In this document: piece after piece, positions 3,748-36,486 of the stretch
How the letters are laid out: each line of letters starts with the position of its first letter
Numbering within the stretch: position 1 is the first letter of the stretch
Source: Thioalkalivibrio sulfidiphilus
GTDB lineage: Bacteria; Pseudomonadota; Gammaproteobacteria; Ectothiorhodospirales; Ectothiorhodospiraceae
Assembly (NCBI RefSeq): GCF_000377945.1
Contig: NZ_KB898924.1
Coordinates: 30,639 to 72,085, forward strand
DNA: 41,447 nt
Reading direction: 5' to 3'
Position numbers and translations under genes: made by a program
Notes under the pieces: generated by a model
Databases searched by the model: none
What the model saw: the letters and a program-made list of their open reading frames with translations, nothing else
What the model was told of the DNA's origin: nothing

Positions 3748-4965
3748 TTGAGTTCCCTTCCTGCGCAAAACCAGCGCGTGGTGTCCGGCATGCGGCCCAC
3801 GGGCCGGCTTCATCTGGGCCACTATCACGGCGTCCTGAAAAACTGGATCGAACTCCAGCATGCCTACGAGTGCCTGTTCTTCGTGGCCGACTGGCATGCC
3901 CTGACCACCCACTACGAAGACCCCCGCATCCTCTCCGAGAGCGTCTGGGACATGGTGGTGGACTGGCTGGCCGCGGGCGTGAGCCCTGGCGCCGCGAAGA
4001 TCTTCATCCAGTCACGGGTGCCGGAACACGCCGAGTTGCATCTGCTGCTGTCCATGATGACGCCGCTCGGCTGGCTGGAGCGTGTGCCCACCTACAAGGA
4101 CCAGCAGGAGAAGCTGCGCGAGAAGGACCTGGCCACCTACGGCTTCCTGGGCTATCCGCTGCTGCAGAGCGCCGACGTGCTGATCTACAAGGCCGGCCTG
4201 GTGCCGGTGGGCGAGGACCAGGTGGCGCACATCGAGATCACCCGGGAGGTGGCGCGACGCTTCAACCACCTCTACGGCCGCGAGCCGGGCTTCGAGGAGA
4301 AGGCCGAGGCCGCCGTGGACAAGATGGGCAAGAAGAACGCCAAGCTCTACCGCGACCTGCGCCGCCGTTACCAGGAGCAGGGCGACGACCAGGCCCTGGA
4401 CGTGGCCCGGGCCATGCTGGAGACCCAGCAGAACATCTCCCTGGGCGACCGGGAGCGGCTGTTCGGCTACCTGGAAGGCTCCGGCAAGATCATCCTGCCC
4501 GAGCCCCAGGCGCTGCTGACAAAGACCTCCAAGATGCCGGGCCTGGACGGGCAGAAGATGTCCAAGTCCTACAACAACACCATCTCCCTGCGGGAAGACC
4601 CGGCGGAGGTGGAGAAGAAGATCCGCACCATGCCCACGGACCCGGCCCGGGTGCGGCGCACCGATCCCGGCGAGCCGGAGAAGTGCCCCGTGTGGGCCCT
4701 GCACCAGGTGTACTCCGACGAATCCACCTGCCAGTGGGTGCAGGAAGGCTGTCGCAGCGCGGGCATCGGTTGCCTGGAGTGCAAGCAGCCGGTGATCGAC
4801 GCGGTGCGTGCCGAGTTGCGTCCCATCCAGGAACGCGCCCGGGACTACGAGGCGGACCCCGCGGCCGTGCGCACCATCATCAACGAGGGCTGCGAGGCGG
4901 CCCGGGACATGGCCCGCGACACCCTCGACGAGGTGCGTCGCGCCATGGGACTGGCCTACCGATGA
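3748..4965 (+). CDS. trpS: Tryptophan--tRNA ligase
   Basis: 405 residues; a class I aminoacyl-tRNA synthetase that charges tRNA-Trp. The HIGH-type motif is HLGH at residues 22-25 and the KMSKS loop is intact at 270-274. The SGMRPTGRLHLGHY start and the LLQSADVLIYKA segment are typical of TrpS. It is longer than the ~334-residue E. coli enzyme, mainly because of about 65 extra residues before KMSKS (roughly 180-255), rich in charged residues; such long TrpS forms occur in many gammaproteobacteria. The start codon is TTG, with GAGGAG at 3737-3742 five bases upstream. Its TGA overlaps the scpA ATG in ATGA, so the two are translationally coupled. Confidence 0.95.
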   Translation: MSSLPAQNQRVVSGMRPTGRLHLGHYHGVLKNWIELQHAYECLFFVADWHALTTHYEDPRILSESVWDMVVDWLAAGVSPGAAKIFIQSRVPEHAELHLLLSMMTPLGWLERVPTYKDQQEKLREKDLATYGFLGYPLLQSADVLIYKAGLVPVGEDQVAHIEITREVARRFNHLYGREPGFEEKAEAAVDKMGKKNAKLYRDLRRRYQEQGDDQALDVARAMLETQQNISLGDRERLFGYLEGSGKIILPEPQALLTKTSKMPGLDGQKMSKSYNNTISLREDPAEVEKKIRTMPTDPARVRRTDPGEPEKCPVWALHQVYSDESTCQWVQEGCRSAGIGCLECKQPVIDAVRAELRPIQERARDYEADPAAVRTIINEGCEAARDMARDTLDEVRRAMGLAYR

Positions 4966-5789
4966 GCATCGAGATCCACGGCCCCCACCCGGGCGGCGCG
5001 AGTCAGGAGGAGATGCCGTTCGCCATCGTGCGCGGTGAGCCCCTGAGCACCCCGCCCAAGGACCTGTACATCCCGCCGGACGCCCTGGAGGTGTTCCTGG
5101 AGGCCTTCGAGGGCCCGCTGGATCTGCTGCTGTATCTCATCAAGCGCCAGAACCTGGACATCCTCGACATCCCCATCGCCGAGATCACCCGCCAGTACAT
5201 GAGCTACATCGAGCTCATGAAGGACCTGCGCCTGGAGCTGGCGGCGGAATACCTGGTGATGGCCGCCATGCTGGCGGAGATCAAGTCGCGCATGCTGCTG
5301 CCCCGGCCGGGCGCCACCGAGGACGAGGAGGACCCCCGGGCCGAACTCATCCGCCGGCTGCAGGAATACGAGCGCTTCAAGAAGGCCGCCGAGGACATCG
5401 ACGCGCTGCCCCGGGTGGAGCGGGAGATCTTCCCGGTGTCCGCCGAGCCGCCGCCCATGGAGCGTGCGCCGCGCCTGCCCGACGTGGAGCTGAAGGAACT
5501 GCTGCTGGCCTTCCGGGAGGTGCTGTCCCGGGCGGACATGTTCACCCACCACCACATCCAGCGCGAACCCCTGTCGGTGCGCGAGCGCATGTCCCGGGTG
5601 CTGGAGGCGCTCAACGCCGCGCCCTTCGTGGAGTTCCACAAGCTGTTCACCGTGGAGGAAGGTCGCCGGGGCGTGGTGGTGACCTTCCTGGCCATCCTGG
5701 AGATGCTCAAGGGACATCTCATCGACCTGGTGCAGCGGGAACCCTATGCGCCGATCTACCTGAGCCTGGCGGGAAAGGCGCAGGAGTAA
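4962..5789 (+). CDS. scpA: Segregation and condensation protein A
   Basis: 275 residues. ScpA is the kleisin of the bacterial SMC-ScpAB condensin complex, bridging the SMC heads. The conserved N-terminal kleisin segment FEGPLDLLLYLIKRQNLDI is present around residue 50, and the C-terminal winged-helix region (about 200-270) includes FVEFHKLF and VVTFLAILEM. The start ATG overlaps the trpS stop by four bases (ATGA). scpB follows after 81 bp. The TAA stop is the first triplet of a heptamer array lying in the scpA-scpB gap. Confidence 0.95.
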   Translation: MSIEIHGPHPGGASQEEMPFAIVRGEPLSTPPKDLYIPPDALEVFLEAFEGPLDLLLYLIKRQNLDILDIPIAEITRQYMSYIELMKDLRLELAAEYLVMAAMLAEIKSRMLLPRPGATEDEEDPRAELIRRLQEYERFKKAAEDIDALPRVEREIFPVSAEPPPMERAPRLPDVELKELLLAFREVLSRADMFTHHHIQREPLSVRERMSRVLEALNAAPFVEFHKLFTVEEGRRGVVVTFLAILEMLKGHLIDLVQREPYAPIYLSLAGKAQE

Positions 5790-5819
5790 GTGCGAAGTGT
5801 GAATTGGGAAGTGGGAATG
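5787..5819. repeat. 7-bp tandem array starting at the scpA stop codon
   Basis: Reads as TAAGTGC, GAAGTGT, GAATTGG, GAAGTGG, GAATG from the TAA stop. The same unit order recurs at 8966, 13306, 29303 and, on the other strand, near 18010. Only one arm is present here. Confidence 0.75.
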
Positions 5820-8212: not shown

Positions 8213-8322
8213 ATGGACAGGATGAACAGGATTTTTCAGGATTAACAAGATCAAAGATGTGAGTTGACTGGACATTTGTCTCGATCCTGTCAATCCATAG
8301 ACATCCTGTTCATCCTGTCCAT
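8213..8322. repeat. Inverted array with a 9-10-bp period (CAGGAT units)
   Basis: A perfect 20-bp inverted repeat (8213-8232 and 8303-8322). Inside the left half CAGGAT recurs every 9-10 bases (CAGGATGAA, CAGGATTTTT, CAGGATTAA, then CAAGAT). It follows rluB by 20 bp. Similar GACAGGATGAACAGGAT repeats occur in many unrelated bacterial genomes. Confidence 0.75.
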
Positions 8323-8346
8323 TGCCTGTAGATCTACGGCACTCCC

Positions 8347-9000
8347 ATGAACTGCCAGCGATTGCACACCGTATACCAGCTGCTGCTTGAGGCCCACGGT
8401 CCCCAGCACTGGTGGCCGGCGCGCACTCGCTTCGAGGTGATGGTTGGGGCGGTGCTGACCCAGAACACCGCCTGGCGCAACGTGGAACGGGCCATCGCCG
8501 CACTGAAGGCAGCGAATGCGCTTTCGCCCGAGGCCATGCTGGCCCTCTCCGATGCCGAGCTTGCCCGGCTCATCCGTCCTTCCGGTTATTTCAACGTCAA
8601 GGCCCGCCGCCTCAAGGCCCTGTGCCGCTGGTACCTGGACCACGGCGGACGGCGGCGCCTGCGCCACTGGCCTACGGAGAAACTGCGGGCATCCCTGCTG
8701 TCGGTGCATGGCATCGGTCCCGAGACCGCCGACGACATCCTGCTCTACGCCTTTGATCGTCCCGTGTTCGTCATCGATGCCTACACGCGGCGCTTGCTCG
8801 GCCGGCTGGGTCATCCATACGCGCAGGCCAGCTACGAGGATTTCAGGGTGTCACTGGAATCGGTCCTCGGCGCCGACACGGAGCTGTTCAACGAATACCA
8901 CGCCCTGATCGTCGCCCATGGCAAGGACGTGTGCAGGCCGAAGCCGCGCTGTGAGCAATGCGTGTTAAGTGCGAAGTGTGAATTGGGATGTGGGACATGA
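8347..9000 (+). CDS. Endonuclease III-like HhH-GPD DNA glycosylase with 4Fe-4S motif
   Basis: 217 residues. The helix-hairpin-helix GIGPETAD is at 122-129, the catalytic Asp of the HhH-GPD fold at 144 (VIDAYTRR), and a 4Fe-4S cluster motif C196-x5-C202-x2-C205-x5-C211 at the end. The Lys used by endonuclease III for Schiff-base chemistry is Glu126 here, so I infer a monofunctional glycosylase, closer to the MagIII-type alkyl-purine glycosylases than to Nth. The last eleven codons (207-217) lie in a heptamer array, so the fourth cluster cysteine and the tail ELGCGT are array-encoded. No Shine-Dalgarno precedes ATG 8347; the start is chosen for domain completeness. Confidence 0.88.
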   Translation: MNCQRLHTVYQLLLEAHGPQHWWPARTRFEVMVGAVLTQNTAWRNVERAIAALKAANALSPEAMLALSDAELARLIRPSGYFNVKARRLKALCRWYLDHGGRRRLRHWPTEKLRASLLSVHGIGPETADDILLYAFDRPVFVIDAYTRRLLGRLGHPYAQASYEDFRVSLESVLGADTELFNEYHALIVAHGKDVCRPKPRCEQCVLSAKCELGCGT

Positions 9001-9160
9001 AGTAAGAAGTGGGAATCCCCACTTCCCACTTCCCACTTCCCACTTCCCACTTCCCACTTCCCACTTCCCACTTCCCACTTCCCACTTCCCACTTCCCACT
9101 TCCTACTTCCTACTTCCTACTTCCTACTTCCTACTTCCTACTTCCTACTTCCTACTTCAA
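8966..9160. repeat. Long heptamer array between the glycosylase gene and aat
   Basis: The left arm (8966-9014) has the degenerate order TAAGTGC, GAAGTGT, GAATTGG seen elsewhere. The right arm is 11 uninterrupted copies of ACTTCCC (9021-9097) followed by 8 copies of ACTTCCT (9098-9153) and ACTTCAA. It fills the whole gap between the two convergent genes, contains the last codons of the glycosylase and the TAG stop of aat. A forward reading gives a repeating HFPLPTS peptide, which is an artefact of 7 x 3 bases. Confidence 0.9.
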
Positions 9161-9862
9161 TTGCGGGTCCACCTGCCAGGGCTCGGGGTGGGGCGGCTGA
9201 TCGCACAGCCGGTCCAGCCATTGGCGGAATTCATTGCGGGGCATGGGCCGGGCGCCCATGCGCGCCAGGTGGGCCGAAGGGGTCTGGCTGTCGATCAGCG
9301 GGTAGCCCCAGCGCTCCAGGTGCCGGCACAGGATGACCAGGGCCACCTTGGAGGCGTCGCTCACCCGGCTGAACATGGACTCGCCGTAGAACATGCGGCC
9401 CAGGGACACCCCGTACAGCCCGCCCACCAGCTTGTCCTCCTGCCAGACCTCCACGGAGTGGGCGAAGCCTGCCTGGTGCATGGCGATGAAGGCCTGCTGC
9501 ATGCCGTAGGTGATCCAGGTGCCGTGCACGCCGCCCCGGGGCTCGGCGCAACCCTTGATGACCTGCTCGAAGGCCTCGTCGAAGCTCACCCGGAAGCGGC
9601 CGCTCCTGAGCGTCTTGGCCAGGCTGCGGCTCACCTTCACCTCGTGGCTGAACAGCACCGTGCGCGGGTCCGGTGACCACCACAGGATGGGTTGGCCGGC
9701 CTCGTACCAGGGAAAGATGCCCTGCCGGTAGGCACGCAGCAGCCGCGGCAGGCTGAGATCGCCCCCGGCGGCCAGCAGGCCGTTGGGTTCGGTGAGTGCC
9801 CGGTCCGGGTGGGGAAAGGGCTCGTCCGCCTGTCCGGGATGCAGCCAGGTGAGGGGATGCAT
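9152..9862 (-). CDS. aat: Leucyl/phenylalanyl-tRNA--protein transferase
   Basis: 236 residues. Aat transfers Leu or Phe from tRNA to N-terminal Arg/Lys of proteins, marking them for ClpAP (N-degron pathway). Family motifs are clear: NGLLAAGGDLS (about 27-37), YRQGIFPWYE, ILWWSPDPR (about 60-68), GTWIT, GLYGVSLGRMFYGESMFS and LIDSQ. The ATG (9860-9862) lies three bases after the stop of the upstream acyltransferase gene, so trxB - acyltransferase - aat form one minus-strand run. The final codons CAA TTG AAG TAG merge into the heptamer array, whose last unit contains the stop. Confidence 0.95.
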   Translation of the reverse strand: MHPLTWLHPGQADEPFPHPDRALTEPNGLLAAGGDLSLPRLLRAYRQGIFPWYEAGQPILWWSPDPRTVLFSHEVKVSRSLAKTLRSGRFRVSFDEAFEQVIKGCAEPRGGVHGTWITYGMQQAFIAMHQAGFAHSVEVWQEDKLVGGLYGVSLGRMFYGESMFSRVSDASKVALVILCRHLERWGYPLIDSQTPSAHLARMGARPMPRNEFRQWLDRLCDQPPHPEPWQVDPQLK

Positions 9863-12240: not shown

Positions 12241-13308
12241 ATGAAGATCGGCATCCCTACCGAGATCAAAGCCCTGGAAGGCCGGGTGGGCCTGGTGCCC
12301 GCCGCCTGCGCGGAGCTGGTGCGCCACGGCCACGAGGTGCTGGTGCAGGCGGGCGCCGGTGCCCGCAGCGGCTACGCTGACGGCGACTATACGGCCGCCG
12401 GAGCCCGGGTGGTGCCCGATGCGGCCAGCCTGTACGGCGAGGCCGGGCTCATCGTCAAGGTCAAGGAGCCCCTGGACGGGGACCTGGCCCACCTGCGCCC
12501 CGACCACATCCTGTTTTGCTACCTGCACCTGGCCGCCAACCGGGATCTGGCAGAACGCCTGCGCGCCTTGGGGATCACCGCCGTGGCCTTCGAGACCGTG
12601 CGGGTGGGCCGGTCGCTGCCCCTGCTGGCGCCCATGAGCGAGATCGCCGGGCGCCTGGCGGTGCAGGTGGGCGCCCACCTTCTGCACCAGCCCCAGGGCG
12701 GCAAGGGCCTGCTGCTGGGCGGTCTGCCCGCCGCCAGCCGGGGGCACGTGGTGGTGCTCGGGGCCGGCGTGGCCGGCAGCGCCGCCGTGGAGGCTGCAGC
12801 CGCCCTGGGGGCCCGGGTCACGGTCTTCGATATCAGCGCCGAACGCATGGACGCCATGCGCCGGGTGGGCGGTAATGTGACCGCCCTCTACGCCTACCAG
12901 CAGGCCATCGGCGAGACTCTGGCCGACGCCGACCTGCTCATCGGCGCCGTGCTCCTGCCCGGCCGCCGGGCACCCCACCTGGTGACCCGGGAGATGTTGC
13001 GCGCCATGGCCCCCGGCAGCGTGGCGGTGGACATCTCCGTGGACCAGGGCGGCTGTCTGGAGACCACCCGGGCCACCACCTACGAGGCGCCCACCTACGT
13101 GGAGGAGGGGGTCACCCACTTCTGCGTCACCAACATGCCCGGCGCTGTGCCCCGCACCTCGTCCCAGGCCCTGTCCGCGAGCCTGATCCCCCACGTGCTG
13201 CGCCTGGCGCAGCCCGACTGGGAGGAGGACATGGCGCTCATGGAGGGGGTGAACGTGCGGGCGGGGGTGTACGTGAATGCGGCGGTGAAGGCGGAAATGG
13301 AGAACTGA
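12241..13308 (+). CDS. ald: Alanine dehydrogenase
   Basis: 355 residues. Ald interconverts L-alanine with pyruvate and ammonia using NAD(H). The N-terminal KIGIPTEIKALEGRVGLVP is typical, as are Lys75 (IVKVKEP) and His96 (CYLHLAA), which match the known catalytic positions; the NAD-binding LGAGVAGSAAVEAAAALGA glycine motif lies around 175-193. The protein is about 15 residues shorter than usual (around 370) because the C-terminal helix ends at AEMEN, where the TGA stop opens a heptamer array. No RNA-binding or regulatory neighbour is evident. It is divergent from trxB and 120 bp ahead of ftsK. Confidence 0.93.
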   Translation: MKIGIPTEIKALEGRVGLVPAACAELVRHGHEVLVQAGAGARSGYADGDYTAAGARVVPDAASLYGEAGLIVKVKEPLDGDLAHLRPDHILFCYLHLAANRDLAERLRALGITAVAFETVRVGRSLPLLAPMSEIAGRLAVQVGAHLLHQPQGGKGLLLGGLPAASRGHVVVLGAGVAGSAAVEAAAALGARVTVFDISAERMDAMRRVGGNVTALYAYQQAIGETLADADLLIGAVLLPGRRAPHLVTREMLRAMAPGSVAVDISVDQGGCLETTRATTYEAPTYVEEGVTHFCVTNMPGAVPRTSSQALSASLIPHVLRLAQPDWEEDMALMEGVNVRAGVYVNAAVKAEMEN

Positions 13309-13380
13309 AGTGGGTAGTGTGAATTGGGAAGTGCGAACTGGTCTTTATTCCCACCTCCCAATTCACACTTCCAACTTCAC
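13306..13380. repeat. Heptamer inverted array between ald and ftsK
   Basis: The left arm begins at the ald TGA (TGAAGTG, GGTAGTG, TGAATTG, GGAAGTG, CGAACTG). The right arm mirrors it with CCCACCT, CCCAATT, CACACTT-type units ending about 13380. After it, ATTGTGAATCATACAAT (13381-13397) is an imperfect palindrome that could be an operator for ftsK, but I cannot assign a regulator. Confidence 0.8.
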
Positions 13381-13428
13381 ATTGTGAATCATACAATTAC
13401 AAAAAATTCCTAAAGACGATACTGAATC

Positions 13429-16571: not shown

Positions 16572-17915
16572 GTGACCGACGATCTCTTCGATACCGCAGC
16601 CTCCGTCGAAACCGGACGCCCCCTGGCGGACCGGATGCGGCCGCGCAATCTGGACGAGTACGCGGGTCAGTCGCACCTGCTGGCGCCGGGCAAGCCGCTG
16701 CGCCGGGCCATCGAAGAGGACCGCCTGCACTCCATGCTGTTCTGGGGGCCGCCGGGCACCGGCAAGACCACCCTGGCGCGCATGATCGCCCACTACTGCG
16801 GTGCCCAGTTCCTGACGATCTCCGCGGTGCTCTCCGGGGTGAAGGACATCCGCGCCGCTGTCGAGCAGGCGCGGGAATACCGGCGCATGCACGGCAAGCC
16901 CACGGTGCTGTTCGTGGACGAGGTGCACCGCTTCAACAAGTCCCAGCAGGATGCCTTCCTGCCCCACGTGGAGGACGGCACCATCGCCTTCGTGGGTGCG
17001 ACCACGGAAAACCCGTCCTTCGAGCTCAACAACGCGCTGCTGTCGCGGGTACGTACCTACGTGCTCAAGGCGCTCACGGACGGCGACATCCGCGCCATCA
17101 TCGACCGGGCCCTGGCGGACGAGGAGCGGGGCCTGGGTGGACGTCATCTGCACATGGCGGACGAGCTGCGTGACCGGCTGGCCAGGGCCGCCGACGGCGA
17201 CGCGCGTCGGGCGCTCAATCTGCTCGAGATCGCCGCCGACCTGGCGCAGGAGGGGCCGCAGGGCGCCGAGATCACCGAGGCGACCCTCGACGAGGTTACC
17301 AGCCAGGGCCTGCGCCGCTTCGACAAGGGCGGCGAACTCTTCTACGACCAGATCTCCGCCCTGCACAAGTCCGTGCGCGGCTCCAACCCCGATGCGGCCC
17401 TCTACTGGCTGTGCCGCATGATCGACGGCGGCTGCGATCTTGTGTATCTGTCCCGGCGCATCGTGCGCATGGCCAGCGAGGACATCGGCAACGCCGACCC
17501 CCGGGGCCTGACCCTGGCCCTGGAGGCCTGGGACGTCTACGAACGCCTGGGCTCGCCGGAAGGGGAGCTGGCCCTGGCCCAGGCGGTGGTGTACCTGGCC
17601 TGCGCGCCGAAGAGCAACGCCGTGTACATGGCCTACAACCAGGCCATGGCCGAGGTGCGCGAGACGGGCACCCTGGAGGTGCCCATGCACCTGCGCAACG
17701 CGCCCACGAAACTCATGAAGTCCCTGGACTACGGCAAGGGCTACCGCTACGCCCACGACGAGCAGGACGGCTACGCCGCCGGCGAACGCTATTTACCCGA
17801 TGAGATGGGTGAGCGGCACTACTACCGGCCCGTGAACCGGGGGCTTGAGATCCGCATCGCGGAGAAGCTGGAGGAGTTGCGCCGCCGGGACGAGGAGGCG
17901 CGCAAAAAAAAGTAG
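16572..17915 (+). CDS. rarA: Replication-associated recombination protein A (RarA/MgsA)
   Basis: 447 residues from the GTG at 16572, the same length as E. coli RarA. A clamp-loader-like AAA+ ATPase acting at stalled forks. Walker A is GPPGTGKTT (about residues 60-68), Walker [19 protein letters not shown] and sensor 1 GATTENPSF; the C-terminal tetramerisation region with [23 protein letters not shown] is complete. An in-frame TTG at 16545 would add nine residues but belongs to the repeat arm upstream, so I prefer the GTG; neither has a good Shine-Dalgarno. The gene ends in an A-rich run (KKK) and TAG that opens a heptamer array. Confidence 0.93.
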
Positions 17916-18017
17916 GAAGTAGGAAGTAGGAAGTGGGAAAGAAACCACCCTGACCCTCCCCCTGAGGGAGATGGAGCAGGTTTTACTTCGCACTTCCCAA
18001 TTCACACTTCCTACTTA
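17911..18017. repeat. Heptamer inverted array between rarA and mgtE (convergent)
   Basis: The left arm starts at the rarA TAG (TAGGAAG x3, then TGGGAAA). The right arm read on the minus strand starts at the mgtE TAA with TAAGTAG, GAAGTGT, GAATTGG, GAAGTGC. Between them is a CCCTCCCCCTGAGGGAG hairpin. The array therefore runs from stop codon to stop codon. Confidence 0.85.
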
Positions 18018-24846: not shown

Positions 24847-25536
24847 ATGACTGATTCTCCACTCATCGAACTGCATGCCGTCACCCGCCGCTACGGGGAG
24901 GGTCAGCAGGCGCGCCGGGTGCTGGACAGGGTCGATGCCCGGGTGATGCCCGGCGAGATCGTCGCCCTGCTGGGGCGCAGCGGCTGCGGCAAGTCCACCC
25001 TGCTGAATCTCATCTCGGGCATCGACTTGCCGGACAGCGGCCGGGTGCTGGTAGAGGGCCTCGACATCGCACGCCTCGACGAGCGCGCTCGCACCCTGTT
25101 CCGCCGCCACCGCATCGGTTTCATCTACCAGTTCTTCAACCTGATCCCGACGCTCACGGTGGCCGAGAACGTGGCCCTGCCCCTGGAACTGGTGGGGCGG
25201 CGCGACGGGGGCGAGGTCGCGCGGCTTCTCGACCGGGTGGGCCTGGCGGGACGGGGCGACGAGGACCCGGACCGGCTCTCCGGTGGCGAGCAGCAACGGG
25301 TGGCCCTGGCCCGGGCCCTGATCCACGCGCCCTCCGTGATCCTGGCCGATGAACCCACCGGCAACCTGGACGCGGAGACCGGCGCCCAGGTCATGGACCT
25401 GCTCAAGGGGCTGGTGCGCGGGCAGGGGGCGACCCTGGTGCTGGTGACCCACAGCGCCGAGGTGGCCTCCGTGGCGGACCGGGTCTGGCGTCTGACGGAC
25501 GGGCGCATCCACGACCAGCGGGACGAGACGCCGTGA
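24847..25536 (+). CDS. ABC transporter ATP-binding protein (LolD/MacB type)
   Basis: 229 residues. Walker [10 protein letters not shown] at 43-51, Q-loop YQFFNLIP, signature [15 protein letters not shown] and Walker [13 protein letters not shown] are intact. The architecture is that of ATPases serving FtsX-fold permeases (LolD, MacB, YbbA). The stop overlaps the permease start in GTGA, so translation is coupled. With the permease and the CrtC-like lipoprotein it resembles the attEFGH-type cluster of proteobacteria, whose substrate is uncertain. Confidence 0.9.
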
Positions 25537-28055
25537 CACTCACCTCGCGCGCCCTGTGGCGGGACGCCCGGCGCCATCCCTGGCAATGGATCCTGGCGGT
25601 GCTGGGCGTGGCCCTGGGGGTGGCGGTGGTGGTGGCCGTGGACCTGGCCAACCACAGCGCCTCACGGGCCTTCGGTCTGTCCCTGGAGGCGGTCTCGGGC
25701 AAGGCCACCCACCAGATCGAGGCCACCGGCCCCGGGGGGCTGGACGAGGCCCTGTTCACCCGCCTGCGCATGGCCGGCATCCGTCCCAGCGCCCCGGTGG
25801 TGGAGGGCCATGTGCGCGTGGACGGCGAGACCTTCCCGCTACTGGGCCTGGAGCCCTTCTCCGAGGCCCCGTTCCGCAGCCACCTGACCGGCGTGCTGGA
25901 TCCGGCGGCGCGGGAACTGGTGTCGCGGCCCGACACCCTGGCGCTCAGCCGTGGCCTCGCCCGCCGGCTCGGCGTCGAGGCCGGGGACAGCCTCACGGTC
26001 ACCGCCGCCTCGGGCAGGCATGTGCTCAGGGTGGGTGCGATCCTCGAGTCCTCGGCACCCGGGGTGGAGGGCCTGCTGCTCACGGACATCGCCACTGCCC
26101 AGGTGCTGCTGGGGCGGGTGGGAAGGCTGGACCGCATCGATCTGATCCTGCCGGAGGGGTCCGATCCCGACGCCCTGCTGGCCGGGTTCCTGCCGCCGGG
26201 CGCCCGGGTGCTGGAGACCGGGGCGCGGGAACAGTCGGCGCGGCAGCTGACCCGGGCCTTTCACATCAACCTCACCGCCATGAGCCTGCTGGCCCTGCTG
26301 GTGGGCGGTTTCCTCATCTACAACACCCTCATGTTCGCGGTGCTGCGACGCCAAGCGCTGCTGGCCGCCCTGCGCACCCTGGGCGTGACCCGGGCCGAGA
26401 TCTTCCGGCTGGTGTTGCTGGAGGCCACGGTGCTGGCCCTGCTGGGGGGGGTGCCCGGGCTGCTGCTCGGACTGCTGGTGGGGCAGGGCCTGGTGCACCT
26501 GGTCACGCGCACCATCAACGACCTCTATTTCGTGCTCTCGGTGACCGGCCTGCACGTCTCCCCCTGGCTGTTGCTCAAGGGATTGGGGTTGGGGCTGGGC
26601 GCGGCCTGGATCGCCGCCCTGGCACCCGCCTGGGAGGCGGCCCGTACCCGTCCCCGGGAAGGTCTACGACGCTCGGGCCTGGAGCGGCGCGCCCACCGGC
26701 TTATGCCCTGGCTGGCGCTGGCGGGCGTGGCACTGATCCTCGCGGGGTATGCCCTAGTGCCGGCCAGTCAGGGGCTGGTGGCCGGATTCATCGCCCTGTT
26801 CCTGATGATCATGGGCTACAGCCTGCTGGTGCCCCTGGGGGTCTGGCTGCTCTCAAGGCTGCTGGCCCGCCCCCTGGGCGGTGTGCTCGGCATCACCGGT
26901 CGTCTCGCGGCACGCGGCCTGGGCGCCGCGCTCAGCCGCACCGGCGTGGCGGTGGCGGCGCTCACGGTGGCGGTCTCGGCCACCGTGGGGGTGGGCATCA
27001 TGGTGGACAGCTTCCGCACCACGGTGCAGGGCTGGCTGGGCCACACCCTGCAGAGCGCCCTCTACGTCACCTCGCCCGCGCCCGGCGACGAGCGTGCCGG
27101 CTCGCTGCTGCCCGAGGGGGTCATGGAACGGGTCGGCGCCGTGGCGGAGGTGGCGGCCTTCAGCACCGGGCGGCGCATCCGGGTGGCCTCCAGCCACGGC
27201 GATGTGGACCTGTTCGTCATGGACCCGGCACCGGCGAGCTTCGAGGGCTTCCGGTTCCGTGCCGGTTCACCGGCCCAGGCCTGGCCCCGCTGGCAGGCGG
27301 GGGAGGCGCTGCTGGTGTCCGAGCCCTTCGCCTGGCACCACCGTGTGTCGGTGGGCGATGAACTCAAGCTCCACACGCCAAAAGGCGAGCGGGTGTTTCC
27401 CGTGGCCGGCATCTATCAGGACTACGGTTCCCAGCAGGGCGTGGTGCTCATGGCCAGAGACCTCTATGAGCAACTCTGGGACGAGCGCCGGGTGGGTTCC
27501 CTCGGTGTCTACCTTGCGCCGGGTGTCGAGGTGTCTACCGGGGTGGAGGCGGTGCGCCGCGCCCTGGCCGATCTGCCCGAATCGTCCGGGCCGGTGCTGG
27601 TGACCGCCGCCGCCGAGATCCGCGAGGCCTCCATGGAGATCTTCGACCGCACCTTCGCCATCACCCACGTGCTGCGCCTGCTCACCGTGGGCGTGGCCTT
27701 CGTGGGCATACTGAGCGCGCTCATGGCCCTGCAGCTGGAGCGGGCCCGGGAGCACGCCGTGCTGCGCGCCACGGGCATGACCGCGGGGCAGGTGACCGGC
27801 CTCGTGACCCTGCAGGGCGCGCTGCTGGGCCTGGCCGCCGGGCTGCTGGCCATCCCCCTGGGCATGATGATGGCCGACGTGTTGATCGATGTGATTAACC
27901 GACGCTCCTTCGGCTGGAGCATGCAGCAGCACGTGCCGCCGGGCGTGCTGGTGGAGGCGGTCTGGCTGGCGGTGATCGCGGCCCTGCTGGCCGGCCTGCG
28001 TCCTGCGTGGCGCATGGGGCGGGTCAGACCGGCGCAGGCCTTGAGGGAAGAATGA
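25533..28055 (+). CDS. FtsX-type ABC transporter permease, two-domain
   Basis: 840 residues. An N-terminal membrane segment (about 17-40) precedes a periplasmic MacB-like domain, then three helices around 245-385, a central pair around 400-460, a second periplasmic domain (about 480-690), and three C-terminal helices ending in a [13 protein letters not shown] tail. This double FtsX arrangement occurs in YbbP-like and AttF/G-like permeases, which usually extract or present lipophilic molecules at the inner membrane. The GTG start overlaps the ATPase stop. The TGA at 28053-28055 opens a heptamer array. Confidence 0.9.
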
Positions 28056-28235
28056 AAGTGGCAAGTGGCAAGTGGCTAGTGGCAAGGGCCCCCACCCCAA
28101 CCCTCCCCCGCAAGCGGGAGAGGGGGCAACAAAGTCGGCTTCCTTTCTCCCTCTCCCTCTCCCTCTCCCTCAGGGAGAGGGCCGGGGTGAGGGTGGTTCT
28201 CCTTGCCACTTGCCACTTGCTACTTGCCACTGCTC
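28053..28235. repeat. Heptamer inverted array between permease and CrtC-like gene, partly coding
   Basis: The left arm at the permease TGA has AAGTGGC at 28056, 28063 and 28070 and TAGTGGC at 28077. The right arm (28202-28231) has the complementary TTGCCAC and TTGCTAC units. Between them lie two further hairpins: CTCCCCCGCAAGCGGGAGAG (about 28099-28119) and a CTCCCT hexamer run (28148-28170) facing GGGAGAGG. The right arm is translated as the signal peptide of the following gene. Confidence 0.85.
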
Positions 28236-29305
28236 TCATTGCCTGTTCACCCCCACCCCCCGACGAATCCCTCGATGTGGCCATCGCCATGGGCGGCGAC
28301 GACACCGTCGGTTTCCTGCGCGCCGACAGCCCCCGGGAATTCCGTTTCCCCGAGGACCACGGGCCCCATCCGGGATTTCGCAACGAGTGGTGGTACGTCA
28401 CCGGCAACCTGGATGGCGAGGATGGCCGGCGCTTCGGTTTCCAGATCACCTTCTTCCGCGTGGCGCTCACGCCGGACGTGCCCGAAAGCCCCTCCGCCTG
28501 GGCCACGGATCATGTGTGGATGGGCCACTTCGCGCTGACCGATGTGGGCGCAGGGCAGCACCATGCCTTCGAGCGCTTCGCCCGTGGCGCGGCGGGGCTT
28601 GCGGGGGCACGATTGGATCCCTTCCGGGTCTGGCTGGAGGACTGGCGACTTGCGGCCGTGGCGGGCAATGACCTGCCCTGGCGCCTGCAACTGGAGGAAG
28701 CGGGCATCAGCCTGGATCTGGAATTCACGCCGCGCAAACCACCGGTGCTCCAGGGCGATGGCGGTATGAGCCAGAAGGGGGCCGGTGAGGGCAACGCCTC
28801 CTACTACTATTCCATGACCCGGCTCGACGCCGTCGGGCATGTGGGCCTGCAGGGACAGCGCCATGGGGTGAGTGGCAGCGCCTGGCTCGACCGGGAATGG
28901 AGCACCAGCGCCCTGGCCGAGGACCAGGCCGGCTGGGACTGGTTCGCGCTGCAGCTGGATGAGGGGCGGGAGCTGATGTACTACCAGATGCGCCGTCAGG
29001 ACGGCAGTGCCGATCCCCACAGCAAGGGCCTGTGGGTGGACACCGACGCCAGCAGCCGGCTGGTGCGGCGTGAGGACGTGGACCTGGAGGTTCTGGATCA
29101 CTGGCGCAGCCCGCAGACTGGCGTGCGTTATCCCGTGGCCTGGCGCCTGCATCTCAAACCCGAGGGCCGGGTATTCGAGGTGCGTGCCGTGCAGCCGGCC
29201 CAGGAGATGCGCCTGACCGTGCGCTACTGGGAAGGGGCGGTGTATGTGTATGAAGGTGGGCAGTCCGTGGGCAGGGGGTATGTGGAGTTGACGGGATACC
29301 GTTGA
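28187..29305 (+). CDS. AttH/CrtC-like (carotenoid hydratase-fold) lipoprotein
   Basis: 372 residues from GTG 28187. GGGAGAGG at 28172-28180 is a good ribosome-binding site, and this start gives a lipoprotein signal peptide ending in L17-I18-A19-C20. The mature protein is a lipocalin-like CrtC/AttH domain pair: NEWWYVTGNL (about 66-75), DHVWMGHFALTD, YYSMTRLDAVGHV, SGSAWLDREWSTSAL and DWFALQLDEGRELMYYQMR. Related proteins partner ABC transporters in attEFGH-type clusters, which fits the two genes upstream. Residues 6-15 of the signal peptide come from the right arm of a heptamer array. An ATG at 28052 is in frame but adds a long Arg/Ser-rich repeat-derived segment, so it is less likely. Confidence 0.87.
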   Translation: MRVVLLATCHLLLATALIACSPPPPDESLDVAIAMGGDDTVGFLRADSPREFRFPEDHGPHPGFRNEWWYVTGNLDGEDGRRFGFQITFFRVALTPDVPESPSAWATDHVWMGHFALTDVGAGQHHAFERFARGAAGLAGARLDPFRVWLEDWRLAAVAGNDLPWRLQLEEAGISLDLEFTPRKPPVLQGDGGMSQKGAGEGNASYYYSMTRLDAVGHVGLQGQRHGVSGSAWLDREWSTSALAEDQAGWDWFALQLDEGRELMYYQMRRQDGSADPHSKGLWVDTDASSRLVRREDVDLEVLDHWRSPQTGVRYPVAWRLHLKPEGRVFEVRAVQPAQEMRLTVRYWEGAVYVYEGGQSVGRGYVELTGYR

Positions 29306-29418
29306 AGTAAGAAGTGTGAATTGGGAAGTGGGAGAGGAAGTACGAAGTGTGAATTGGGAAGTGCGAAGTGAAACGGCCTTTCGTTCGCACTTCCCAATTC
29401 ACACTTCGTACTTCGTTA
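29303..29418. repeat. Heptamer inverted array between CrtC-like gene and corA (convergent)
   Basis: Starts at the TGA of the CrtC-like gene (TGAAGTA, AGAAGTG, TGAATTG, GGAAGTG) and ends at the corA TAA on the other strand (TAACGAA, GTACGAA, GTGTGAA, TTGGGAA). The middle has a second left-hand block, so the GAATTGGGAAGTG motif occurs twice on the plus strand and once in inverse. Confidence 0.85.
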
Positions 29419-30679: not shown

Positions 30680-31378
30680 ATGACCATCCGCTGCATCACC
30701 TTCGACCTCGATGACACCCTGTGGGACTGCGCCCCGGTGATCGAGGGGGCCGAGAGCCGCTTCTATCACTGGCTCACGGAACACTACCCGCGCATCCCTG
30801 AGCGCTTCACCCCGGAGGCGCTCATCGAGCATCGCAAGGACTGGTTCGGCCGATACCCGGATCTGCACCATGACATGACCCGCCTGCGCAAACGCTGGCT
30901 GAGCGTGCTGGCCCGTGAAACCGGCTACGACGAATCACTGGTGGAACCCGGGTTCCGGGTGTTCTGGGAGGCGCGCAACCAGGTGTGCCTCTACGACGAC
31001 GTGCTGGAGACCCTTGAGCGCCTGCGCGGCCGCTACCTGCTGGGCAGCATCACCAACGGCAATGCCGACGTGCACCACATCGGCATCGGTCATTACTTCG
31101 ACTTCTCCATCACCGCCGCCGGTGCCGGCGTGGCCAAACCCCATCCGGCGATCTTCACGGCGGCGCTCGACGAGGCCGGCGTCGCGGCCCACGAGGCCCT
31201 GCACGTGGGCGACGACCCGGAGCGGGACGTGATCGGCGCGGCCCGGGTGGGGCTCAGGACGCTGTGGGTCAACCCGCAGGATCTGCCGGCACCGGAGGGC
31301 TGCCGGCCGGATGGGGTGGTCAGACGGGTGGGGGAGATACCGGAGTGGATCGAGGGATGGGTGAGAAGTGAGAAGTGA
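30680..31378 (+). CDS. HAD-family hydrolase, YigB-like phosphatase
   Basis: 232 residues. Motif I FDLDDTLWD (Asp9, Asp11), motif II SITNGN (about 118-123), Lys in VAKPHPAIF and motif IV HVGDDPERDVIGA are all intact, so a phosphatase of the HAD superfamily. The alpha-helical cap between motifs I and II matches the YigB subgroup, which hydrolyses FMN and related phosphates. The C-terminal residues VRSEK and the TGA stop are encoded by GTGAGAA heptamers and probably add a tail outside the fold. Confidence 0.9.
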   Translation: MTIRCITFDLDDTLWDCAPVIEGAESRFYHWLTEHYPRIPERFTPEALIEHRKDWFGRYPDLHHDMTRLRKRWLSVLARETGYDESLVEPGFRVFWEARNQVCLYDDVLETLERLRGRYLLGSITNGNADVHHIGIGHYFDFSITAAGAGVAKPHPAIFTAALDEAGVAAHEALHVGDDPERDVIGAARVGLRTLWVNPQDLPAPEGCRPDGVVRRVGEIPEWIEGWVRSEK

Positions 31379-31432
31379 GAAGTGATGATGTTACCCCTCA
31401 CGCCTGACCCCTCACGCCCGACCCCTCACGCA
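31361..31432. repeat. Heptamer array between the HAD and GGDEF/EAL genes, coding at both ends
   Basis: GTGAGAA occurs at 31361, 31368 and 31375, then GTGATGA. The facing arm has CCCCTCA (31394, 31408, 31422) alternating with CGCCTGA and CGCCCGA, giving a 14-bp double unit. The stops of both convergent genes lie inside the arms. Confidence 0.85.
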
Positions 31433-35420: not shown

Positions 35421-36486
35421 ATTTCTCTCGCAGAGGCGCGGGGGCGCGGGGGAAAAGCGCTTTGAATAGGCCTTCCCCGTGCCTCCGTGGCCCCGTGAGA
35501 GGACCGGTTTAGGCCTCAAGTGTCTGTAAATTCAAAGGCCTGGGTCTCTCGCCAAGCCGCAAAGACGCGAAGGAAAGATATAGAACTGGGTTTCTTGGCG
35601 CCTTCGCGCCTTCGCGAGAGATCAAGCTTTTGCCTTTCCCTCGCGCCCCTGCGCCTCTGCGAGAGGATGGTTTTGACTTTGGGTTTCGGCGGGACAAAGG
35701 CTAAAGGCGATCCTCTCACGGAGCCACGGGGACACGGAGGAAACCCTTTGCAAATAAGCCTTCCCCGTGTCTCCGTGCCCCCGTGAGAGGACCGGTTTCG
35801 GCCCAAGATGACGGCAAAACCCAAGGCCTGGGTCTCTCGCCAAGCCGCGAAGCCGCAAAGGAAAGACATTCGAAATGGGGTTTCTTGGCGTCTTCGCGCC
35901 TTCGCGAGAGATCAAGATTTTGCCTTTCCTCCGCGCCCCTGCGCCTCTGCGAGAGGATGGTTTTGACTTTGGGTTTCGGCTGGTCAAAGGCGAAAGGCGA
36001 TCCTCTCGCGGAGGCGCTGGGACGCGGAGAAAAGCTGTTTGAATAGATCCTCCCCGTGCCTCCGTGGCCCCGTGAGAGGACTGGTTTAGGCCCTGGTGAC
36101 GGAAAAACCAAAGACCCGGATCTCTCGCCAAGCCGCGAAGCCGCAAAGGAAAGACATTCGAAATGGGGTTTCTTGGCGTCTTCGCGCCTTCGCGAGAGAT
36201 CAAGATTTTGACTTTCCTCCGCGCCCCCGCGCCTCTGCGAGAGGATGGTTTTGACTTTGGGTTTCGGGGGAAGACGAAAGGCGATCCTCTCACGGGGCCA
36301 CTGAGGCACGGGGAAGGCATATTTGAACAGGATTTCCTCCGTGCCCCCGTGGCTCCGTGAGAGGACAGGTGTTGACCTCAGGCGACGGTAAAACCAAATG
36401 CCTGGATTTCTCGCCAAGCCGCAAAGACGCAAAGGAAAAACATTCAAAATGGGTTTCTTGGCGGCTTCGCGGCTTGGCGAGAGATC
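35421..36486. repeat. Tandem 288-bp macro-repeats built of 8-bp-period hairpins (copies 1-4)
   Basis: Three recurring blocks alternate. Block A is a hairpin of CTCTCGCGGAGG... facing ...CCGTGAGAGG; block B is a hairpin from TCTCTCGCCAAGCCGC to CGCGAGAGAT; block C is a single arm GCGCCTCTGCGAGAGG plus TGGTTTTGACTTTGGG. Block B starts at 35545, 35833, 36121 and 36407, a spacing of 288, 288 and 286 bp. Inside the arms 8-mers can be read (CGCGGAGG, CGCTGGGA; GTGCCTCC, GTGGCCCC; GCCAAGCC, GCAAAGAC). No open frame here has family resemblance; 35314-36538 is otherwise empty. Confidence 0.85.

Follow-up and report, generated by a model that had tools for sequence, protein, structure and literature searches.

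In the accessible portions of the literature cited here, short repeats at the ends of bacterial genes take several forms. The GGGNATC heptamer repeats of Xanthomonas and Nostoc lie near or across stop codons and form inverted pairs (70 and 75 cases in two Xanthomonas; PMC4692102), and the TAACTGA heptamers of Beggiatoaceae overlap the ends of ORFs, with stop codons lying within the repeat (PMC4679880). Small inverted repeats are also reported to supply C-termini (PMC5896051, PMC2759123); QMITE1 and QMITE2 of Coxiella burnetii, wherever they affect a functional annotated gene, are inserted at its 3' end, and one insertion provides 33 C-terminal residues (PMC5896051). REPs are defined as short repeats (20–40 bp) that seldom overlap coding sequence (PMC3733652, PMC12306157), and those situated ≤15 nt from a stop codon affect translation (cited in PMC12306157). 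REPs with GTAG and CGTC tags from two other Thioalkalivibrio isolates are described as palindromes in high copy number that lie close to the 3' ends of ORFs in convergent and tandem arrangement, with slightly more than 10% of the intragenic copies placed at the end of a CDS (PMC3733652).

The window analysed here, a stretch of 41,447 nucleotides from Thioalkalivibrio sulfidiphilus, carries a DNA glycosylase gene whose last codons lie in repeat DNA (Table 1). The protein ends in ...C196RPKPRC202EQC205VLSAKC211ELGCGT* and thus contains the motif Cys196-x5-Cys202-x2-Cys205-x5-Cys211. It shows the HhH-GPD domain, the fold and the four-cysteine C-terminal motif of the endonuclease III class. The AlphaFold model, for which the target was aligned with 38 of the 80 available locus proteins (39 sequences in all), has a mean pLDDT of 95.5, with values of 94 at residues 201–210 and 65 at residues 211–217. 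Structural alignment to endonuclease III structures gave Z scores of 20.2–23.3 over 199–216 aligned residues, and in a phmmer alignment to an endonuclease III of D. radiodurans (8a5f), the match extends to residue 212 and includes the cysteine loop. Membership of the MagIII-like class is not indicated, the protein scoring 105.7 bits against a cut-off of 192 bits for the 3-methyladenine glycosylase model PRK13913; it also falls below the NCBIfam cut-off for nth. Cys211 is predicted to bind the [4Fe-4S] cluster. Between the upstream pseudouridine-synthase gene (Pfam) and the start of the glycosylase, inverted repeats of the ATGAACAGGAT / ATCCTGTTCAT type are found at 8213–8325.

Table 1. Features of the glycosylase locus and copies of the element in the window.
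Feature	Position	Strand	Evidence and remarks
HhH-GPD DNA glycosylase (endonuclease III superfamily), 217 aa	8347-9000	+	ORF; Pfam/NCBIfam matches; AlphaFold; structure alignment
Left arm of palindromic element, five heptamers (TAAGTGC GAAGTGT GAATTGG GATGTGG GACATGA), translated including stop	8966-9000	+	Element consensus; array model; R1; null tests
Cys211 codon TGT, predicted fourth [4Fe-4S] ligand	8977-8979	+	Inside GAAGTGT 8973-8979
Further left-arm unit and centre (AGTAAGAAGTGGGAATC)	9001-9017	+	Sequence; array model; comparison with G004
Right arm, expanded to ~20 CCCACTT/CCTACTT units	9018-9159	-	9018-9158: 20.1 copies, 99% matches; array model 216.7 bits
aat (leucyl/phenylalanyl-tRNA--protein transferase), convergent	9152-9862	-	Pfam Leu_Phe_trans, E 1.4e-74
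23-nt element head TAAGTGCGAAGTGTGAATTGGGA, identical to that in the glycosylase	5787-5809	+	Supplies TAA stop (5787-5789) of gene 4962-5789; remainder downstream of that gene
Element copy at 3' end of gene 12241-13308	13306-13381	.	Array model; consensus; R1 list
Element copy between convergent genes, holds stop of gene 16572-17915	17910-18016	.	Array model; R1 list
Element copy between convergent genes	29303-29414	.	Array model; consensus; R1 list
Single heptamer arm giving C-terminal '...VRSEK*' of gene 30680-31378	31361-31384	+	Array model; not an R1 match

As the initial annotation had stated, the glycosylase is read through the array from codon 207 to its stop, with the Cys211 codon contained in a GAAGTGT unit: codon 207 (TTA) begins at 8965, and the five heptamers fill the remainder of the gene exactly, placing the TGA stop inside the fifth. 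At this point, GC3 drops from 0.82 (codons 1–206) to 0.33 (codons 207–218). The tail contains codons that are rare among the genes called in this genome (TTA 0.12, TGT 0.91 and ACA 1.09 per 1000), TGT on its own proving nothing, since it also encodes Cys202. Arrays were scored with a cyclic seven-position model trained on heptamer arrays from the window and from 38 stretches of this genome, leaving out those in 8900–9160. This model returned a match of 59 bits at 8967–9016 and, again trained without this locus, 36.8 bits for the 36-nt tail of the glycosylase. The latter score was reached by 0 of 5,954 internal CDS windows (maximum 15.7), 0 of 5,000 synonymous recodings of the tail peptide based on genome codon usage (maximum 26.9) and 0 of 5,400 recoded orthologue tails (maximum 16.1). 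Because no control window or recoded tail peptide attains it, the resemblance of the tail to the array is not due to chance. The underlying PWM merges the element with look-alike heptamer families, and the scores alone do not name the family. The 23-nt head of the element (8966–8988) has four exact occurrences in the genome, including the target, and 64 at ≤2 mismatches, compared with none for a reversed-pattern control. The same 23 letters yield a TAA stop at 5787 in one gene and the peptide L-S-A-K-C-E-L-G at 8966 in the glycosylase.

The consensus of 24 copies other than the target reads GAAGTGn GAAGTGT GAATTGG GAAGTGC GAAGTGA, followed by a short AAGGCC-type centre and then the inverse complement, giving an element of ~80 bp. 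The five coding heptamers of the glycosylase represent its complete left arm, unit for unit and in order. The right arm at the target, unlike that of the consensus element, is a simple array, within which lies the AAG-TAG end of aat (9152–9157). A covariance model built from the 24 copies with the target left out, termed R1, matched the target at 8963–9056 (E 3.5e-13). Its 147 matches in this genome correspond to at least 75 sites, of which 72 were found on both strands and 3 on a single strand; the count is a minimum because 150 of 815 candidates were scored. When 58 genomes were searched, with the stricter filters used for large sets, matches were obtained in all five genomes of the genus, including its own, and in none of the 53 genomes outside it. 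An Rfam search of the window produced no match. The idea of a simple heptamer tandem repeat (SSR) was dropped, as the consensus shows the units in a set order in which GAATTGG, counted from the outside, is the third. The element is a genus-specific, high-copy palindromic repeat that occupies the 3' ends of genes. No description of it was found in the literature searched, Thioalkalivibrio included, most subscription papers lying outside this coverage.

The position of the element relative to genes was determined in two samples, with genes called by a codon-usage script that fixes 3' ends by stop codons and chooses starts by coding score, and with array borders uncertain by a few nucleotides. 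The first sample comprised 45 arrays overlapping R1 matches in stretches picked by motif alone, 24 of which had also been used to build R1; the second comprised 41 of the 42 R1 sites outside these stretches (one on contig C27 was left out), analysed with the same fixed models. In the first, 59 of 65 3' flanks lay ≤20 nt from the element or overlapped it, 29 of them by ≥4 nt, placing the stop in the element, and 16 by ≥10 nt. The second gave 56 of 59, with 29 and 16 overlaps at the same thresholds, and in 17 of its 19 tandem pairs the element was nearer to the 3' end of the upstream gene. Both samples together yield 115 of 124 3' flanks within 20 nt, 58 overlapping by ≥4 nt and 32 by ≥10 nt, and of the 86 elements, 40 lie between convergent, 44 between tandem and 2 between divergent genes. 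Among 5' flanks, 6/25 and 7/23 (13/48 in total) were found within this distance and none overlapped, the 5' figures being less reliable than the 3' figures and the zero overlap partly built in, because starts were chosen by coding score. A broader sample of 93 arrays with families mixed (91 with both flanks in view) gave 92/109 for 3' and 14/73 for 5' flanks, and the 48 arrays in it that are not R1 matches (46 with both flanks) followed a weaker pattern of the same kind (33/44 and 8/48).

The array had been regarded as noncoding outside the glycosylase, which does not hold. At locus L160, two convergent genes both end in an array peptide (...SKKCELGGAK* and ...SEQCELGSGN*), and other unrelated genes obtain the ends ...LKCEV*, ...QKCEV* and ...EKCEV* from the element. 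A cysteine in the frame used by the glycosylase is an ordinary product of the element; the special point is that it lands on a conserved ligand position. In the window, overwriting is visible also at gene 4962–5789, which we take to be scpA-like: its orthologues in three congeners that lack the element there (G001–G003) each possess 12 more native C-terminal residues. In the present genome (G000) and in the congener G004, these 12 residues are missing; the stop is provided by the element in G000, and the element begins a few nucleotides after the stop in G004. A further copy adjoins gene 12241–13308, which presumably is alanine-dehydrogenase-like. Directly after the stop of gene 25533–28055, a sister family occupies 28056–28231; it is built of CAAGTGGC units, and its inverted arms are set apart by a long spacer. 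About 3.6 copies of a 288-bp tandem repeat with octamer motifs are located at 35452–36486.

The element could serve as a functional 3'-end RNA hairpin (in termination, in protection of the 3' end or in the control of stop codons) or be a selfish repeat that is tolerated; the question is fairly balanced, and we lean slightly against a function. A hairpin role would suit the position at gene 3' ends, yet tolerated insertions also survive best there. It would likewise suit the distribution of arrays of all families in array-selected stretches, where 28 of 39 convergent, 49 of 171 tandem and 9 of 38 divergent pairs contain one. The fold of 8950–9165 is strong (-60.4 kcal/mol, z -9.0), but folding is built into any palindrome, and there is hardly any covariation (a double change in 1 of 21 pairs). 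Moreover, an intrinsic-terminator scan of 8700–9400 detected no terminator (0.4 expected) and no terminator-like U-run. A bolder reading treats the palindrome as a stop-codon cassette with active copying into the gene ends of the genus; such a cassette would replace the native termini and stops of dozens of genes, stamp recurring peptides (…KCEV*, …SEG*, …SGK*, …KCELG…) on unrelated proteins and once have taken over an essential metal ligand. We regard this as unlikely.

Orthologues of the glycosylase were compared to trace the history of the fourth cysteine. Four cysteines are present in 100 of 106 distinct orthologues with ≥50% identity (target included), spaced 5-2-5 in 90, 6-2-5 in 8 and 5-2-7 in 2; the fourth is absent from the other six, and in the wider family it is not absolutely required. 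The proteins of G001–G003, 72–74% identical to the target, are free of the element at the coding end and have different, mostly GC-rich tails (8.5–12.0 bits, as against 36.8 for the target), ending in ...LAKGCAARKKER, ...LAKGCAARKDEG and ...LKRGCAFQKGKGSSDF, respectively. In each of them, the fourth cysteine is a TGC codon at the same spacing and is preceded by Gly, never by Lys. Because these three element-free congeners share TGC at this spacing, the position of the cysteine is ancestral, so the ligand would have been preserved or re-supplied and not newly gained.

The orthologue of G004, the closest relative by identity, is 90% identical, and its tail again consists of element DNA (LSTKCEFGSGT, 41.5 bits), followed after the stop by a second left arm of ~3 units and a right arm of ~5 units. 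Since G000 and G004 both have an element-coded tail, the overwrite of the Cys211 codon by repeat DNA predates their split; the 20-copy right arm is most simply explained as a later expansion. Their tails differ by three amino-acid changes (A209T, L213F and C215S) and no silent change, with Cys211 kept, and constraint on the tail seems weak except at this residue; in the bodies of the two genes, 26 codons differ silently and 18 by replacement. These comparisons support one of the two alternatives in the initial annotation, that the array replaced a natural C-terminus. An array-free orthologue with the identical last eleven codons, named beforehand as the finding that would speak against it, does not occur at any of the 111 matching loci, which encode 106 distinct proteins of ≥50% identity: an identical tail would score 36.8 bits, and no tail apart from those of the target and G004 exceeds 12.9 bits. 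The annotation recognised the array-coded tail and offered the replacement as one alternative; it missed the palindromic unit, its spread through the genome, the aat stop inside the element and the ancestral cysteine.

Heptamers of other kinds were observed near the same junction. The glycosylase of G002 ends in AAGGATGAAGGATGA, comprising two GGATGAA units, and TTCATCC heptamers lie downstream of the gene in G003, both being units of heptamer families other than the element. In a Chromatiales MAG (L046:3640–3663), the tail after the fourth cysteine of the orthologue is coded by unrelated CAGAGGA heptamers, and at locus L015 the corresponding tail (EYRTTEARRR) seems by eye to be coded by CACGGAGG-type octamers, TRF reporting the octamer only downstream. 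The own genome contains a second endonuclease III-like (Nth-like) gene (L002, contig C26), whose tail after the last cysteine (KTEKQETRSKRQ...) overlaps a weak AGGCAAG-type array with low TRF scores and an inverted counterpart just downstream. The assumption of one heptamer family at all orthologue ends was dropped in view of the CAGAGGA units in the CDS end of L046 and the weak AGGCAAG-type units of L002.

All in all, we consider it probable that the glycosylase gene lost its original end to a copy of the element, which survived because a cysteine at the required spacing came with its GAAGTGT unit. In the common ancestor of this species and G004, the copy would have replaced the gene end from about codon 207, after which the ribosome would read the entire left arm in the K-C-E-L-G frame and stop at the TGA within the fifth unit. 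The Cys of GAAGTGT, located at the ancestral x5 spacing, would take the place of the original fourth cluster ligand, so that purifying selection could keep the copy at the glycosylase. The element may have arrived by insertion or by copying, the intergenic DNA up to the aat stop may have been replaced in the same event, and selection may have filtered for the copy that bears Cys211.

The insertion event was caught in no intermediate species, and the Cys codon need not have been copied directly from the element; recombination at an ancestral AAG-TGY could be another route to this sequence. The gene might thus already have ended in AAG-TGC/TGT (Lys-Cys) and the element have attached there by homology, in which case the Cys codon would be ancestral and only its flanks repeat-derived. 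The cysteine position is indeed old (100/106), its exact spacing would be easier to obtain if the cysteine had served as the anchor, and element ends elsewhere often coincide with gene ends of the AAG-stop type. However, the Cys codon lies 11 nt inside the stretch of element identity, which begins at 8966 and runs on through the codon for 23 identical nucleotides in total, so that attachment would need conversion of a tract on both sides, and 0 of 3 element-free congeners have a Lys directly before the cysteine. We therefore judge this course of events improbable, and overwriting by an element copy remains the preferred explanation. It is far less probable still that the array grew outward from the glycosylase end, as had been offered in the initial annotation, and spread later. 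Heptamer copy number does vary at the locus (~20 right-arm copies here vs ~5 in G004), but this change affects the right arm, away from the coding one, and growth from this gene is rejected as the origin of the family, the full ordered element being present in 5/5 genus genomes, three of which (G001, G002 and G003) lack it at the glycosylase. Codon drift with chance resemblance, and no repeat in the coding sequence at all, would fit the glycosylase family, whose usual form has C-x5-C-x2-C-x5-C and a short tail, but it is virtually discounted by the three control sets (0/5,954, 0/5,000 and 0/5,400) and by a 23-mer shared exactly with three further genomic sites.

Gene-end repeats are usually taken to alter tails that are dispensable. 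In the present case, it is a conserved residue of a DNA-repair enzyme, predicted to be a metal ligand, that is encoded in repeat DNA. The end of the glycosylase gene can serve as a natural experiment on the ways in which coding sequence is overwritten by repeats and on the residues that they must keep under selection; parallel cases, comparable with orthologues free of the element, exist within the genus. For annotators, it follows that the 3' ends of genes in such genomes can be element-derived.

Among the systems described, the GGGNATC repeats share with the element heptamer units at stop codons, whereas the element has a different unit, a fixed order and a centre; the accessible text mentions no repeat-encoded functional residue (PMC4692102). 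The TAACTGA repeats, unlike the element, are mostly situated just upstream of start codons and are direct, with one inverted case, as far as the report is accessible (PMC4679880). QMITE1 and QMITE2 are, like the element, small inverted repeats, and the element has the inverted terminal repeats of a MITE, its ends being too variable to define a target-site duplication; the sequences are unrelated, and the portions of the report available mention no cofactor ligand for QMITEs (PMC5896051). With REPs, the element has in common the palindromic structure, a common consensus (24 copies) and many copies (at least 75 sites). REPs are, however, 20–40 bp long, tagged and RAYT-linked in the accessible description (PMC3733652) and seldom overlap coding sequence, whereas the element is ~80 bp long and heptamer-built and overlaps the CDS by ≥4 nt at 58 of 124 3' flanks. 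A RAYT link was dropped: the genome has three Y1_Tnp matches, none of these RAYT-type genes is flanked by the element, and their 3.3-kb loci contain no array of ≥15 bits. The endonuclease III and MagIII glycosylases have the fold and the HhH-GPD domain in common with the target, whose four-cysteine loop is as in endonuclease III; the target differs in that its fourth cysteine codon is repeat DNA. Measured against the accessible literature, repeats at gene ends and repeat-coded C-termini are already known, and what is new is a conserved position of a predicted iron-sulfur ligand that is encoded by a repeat.
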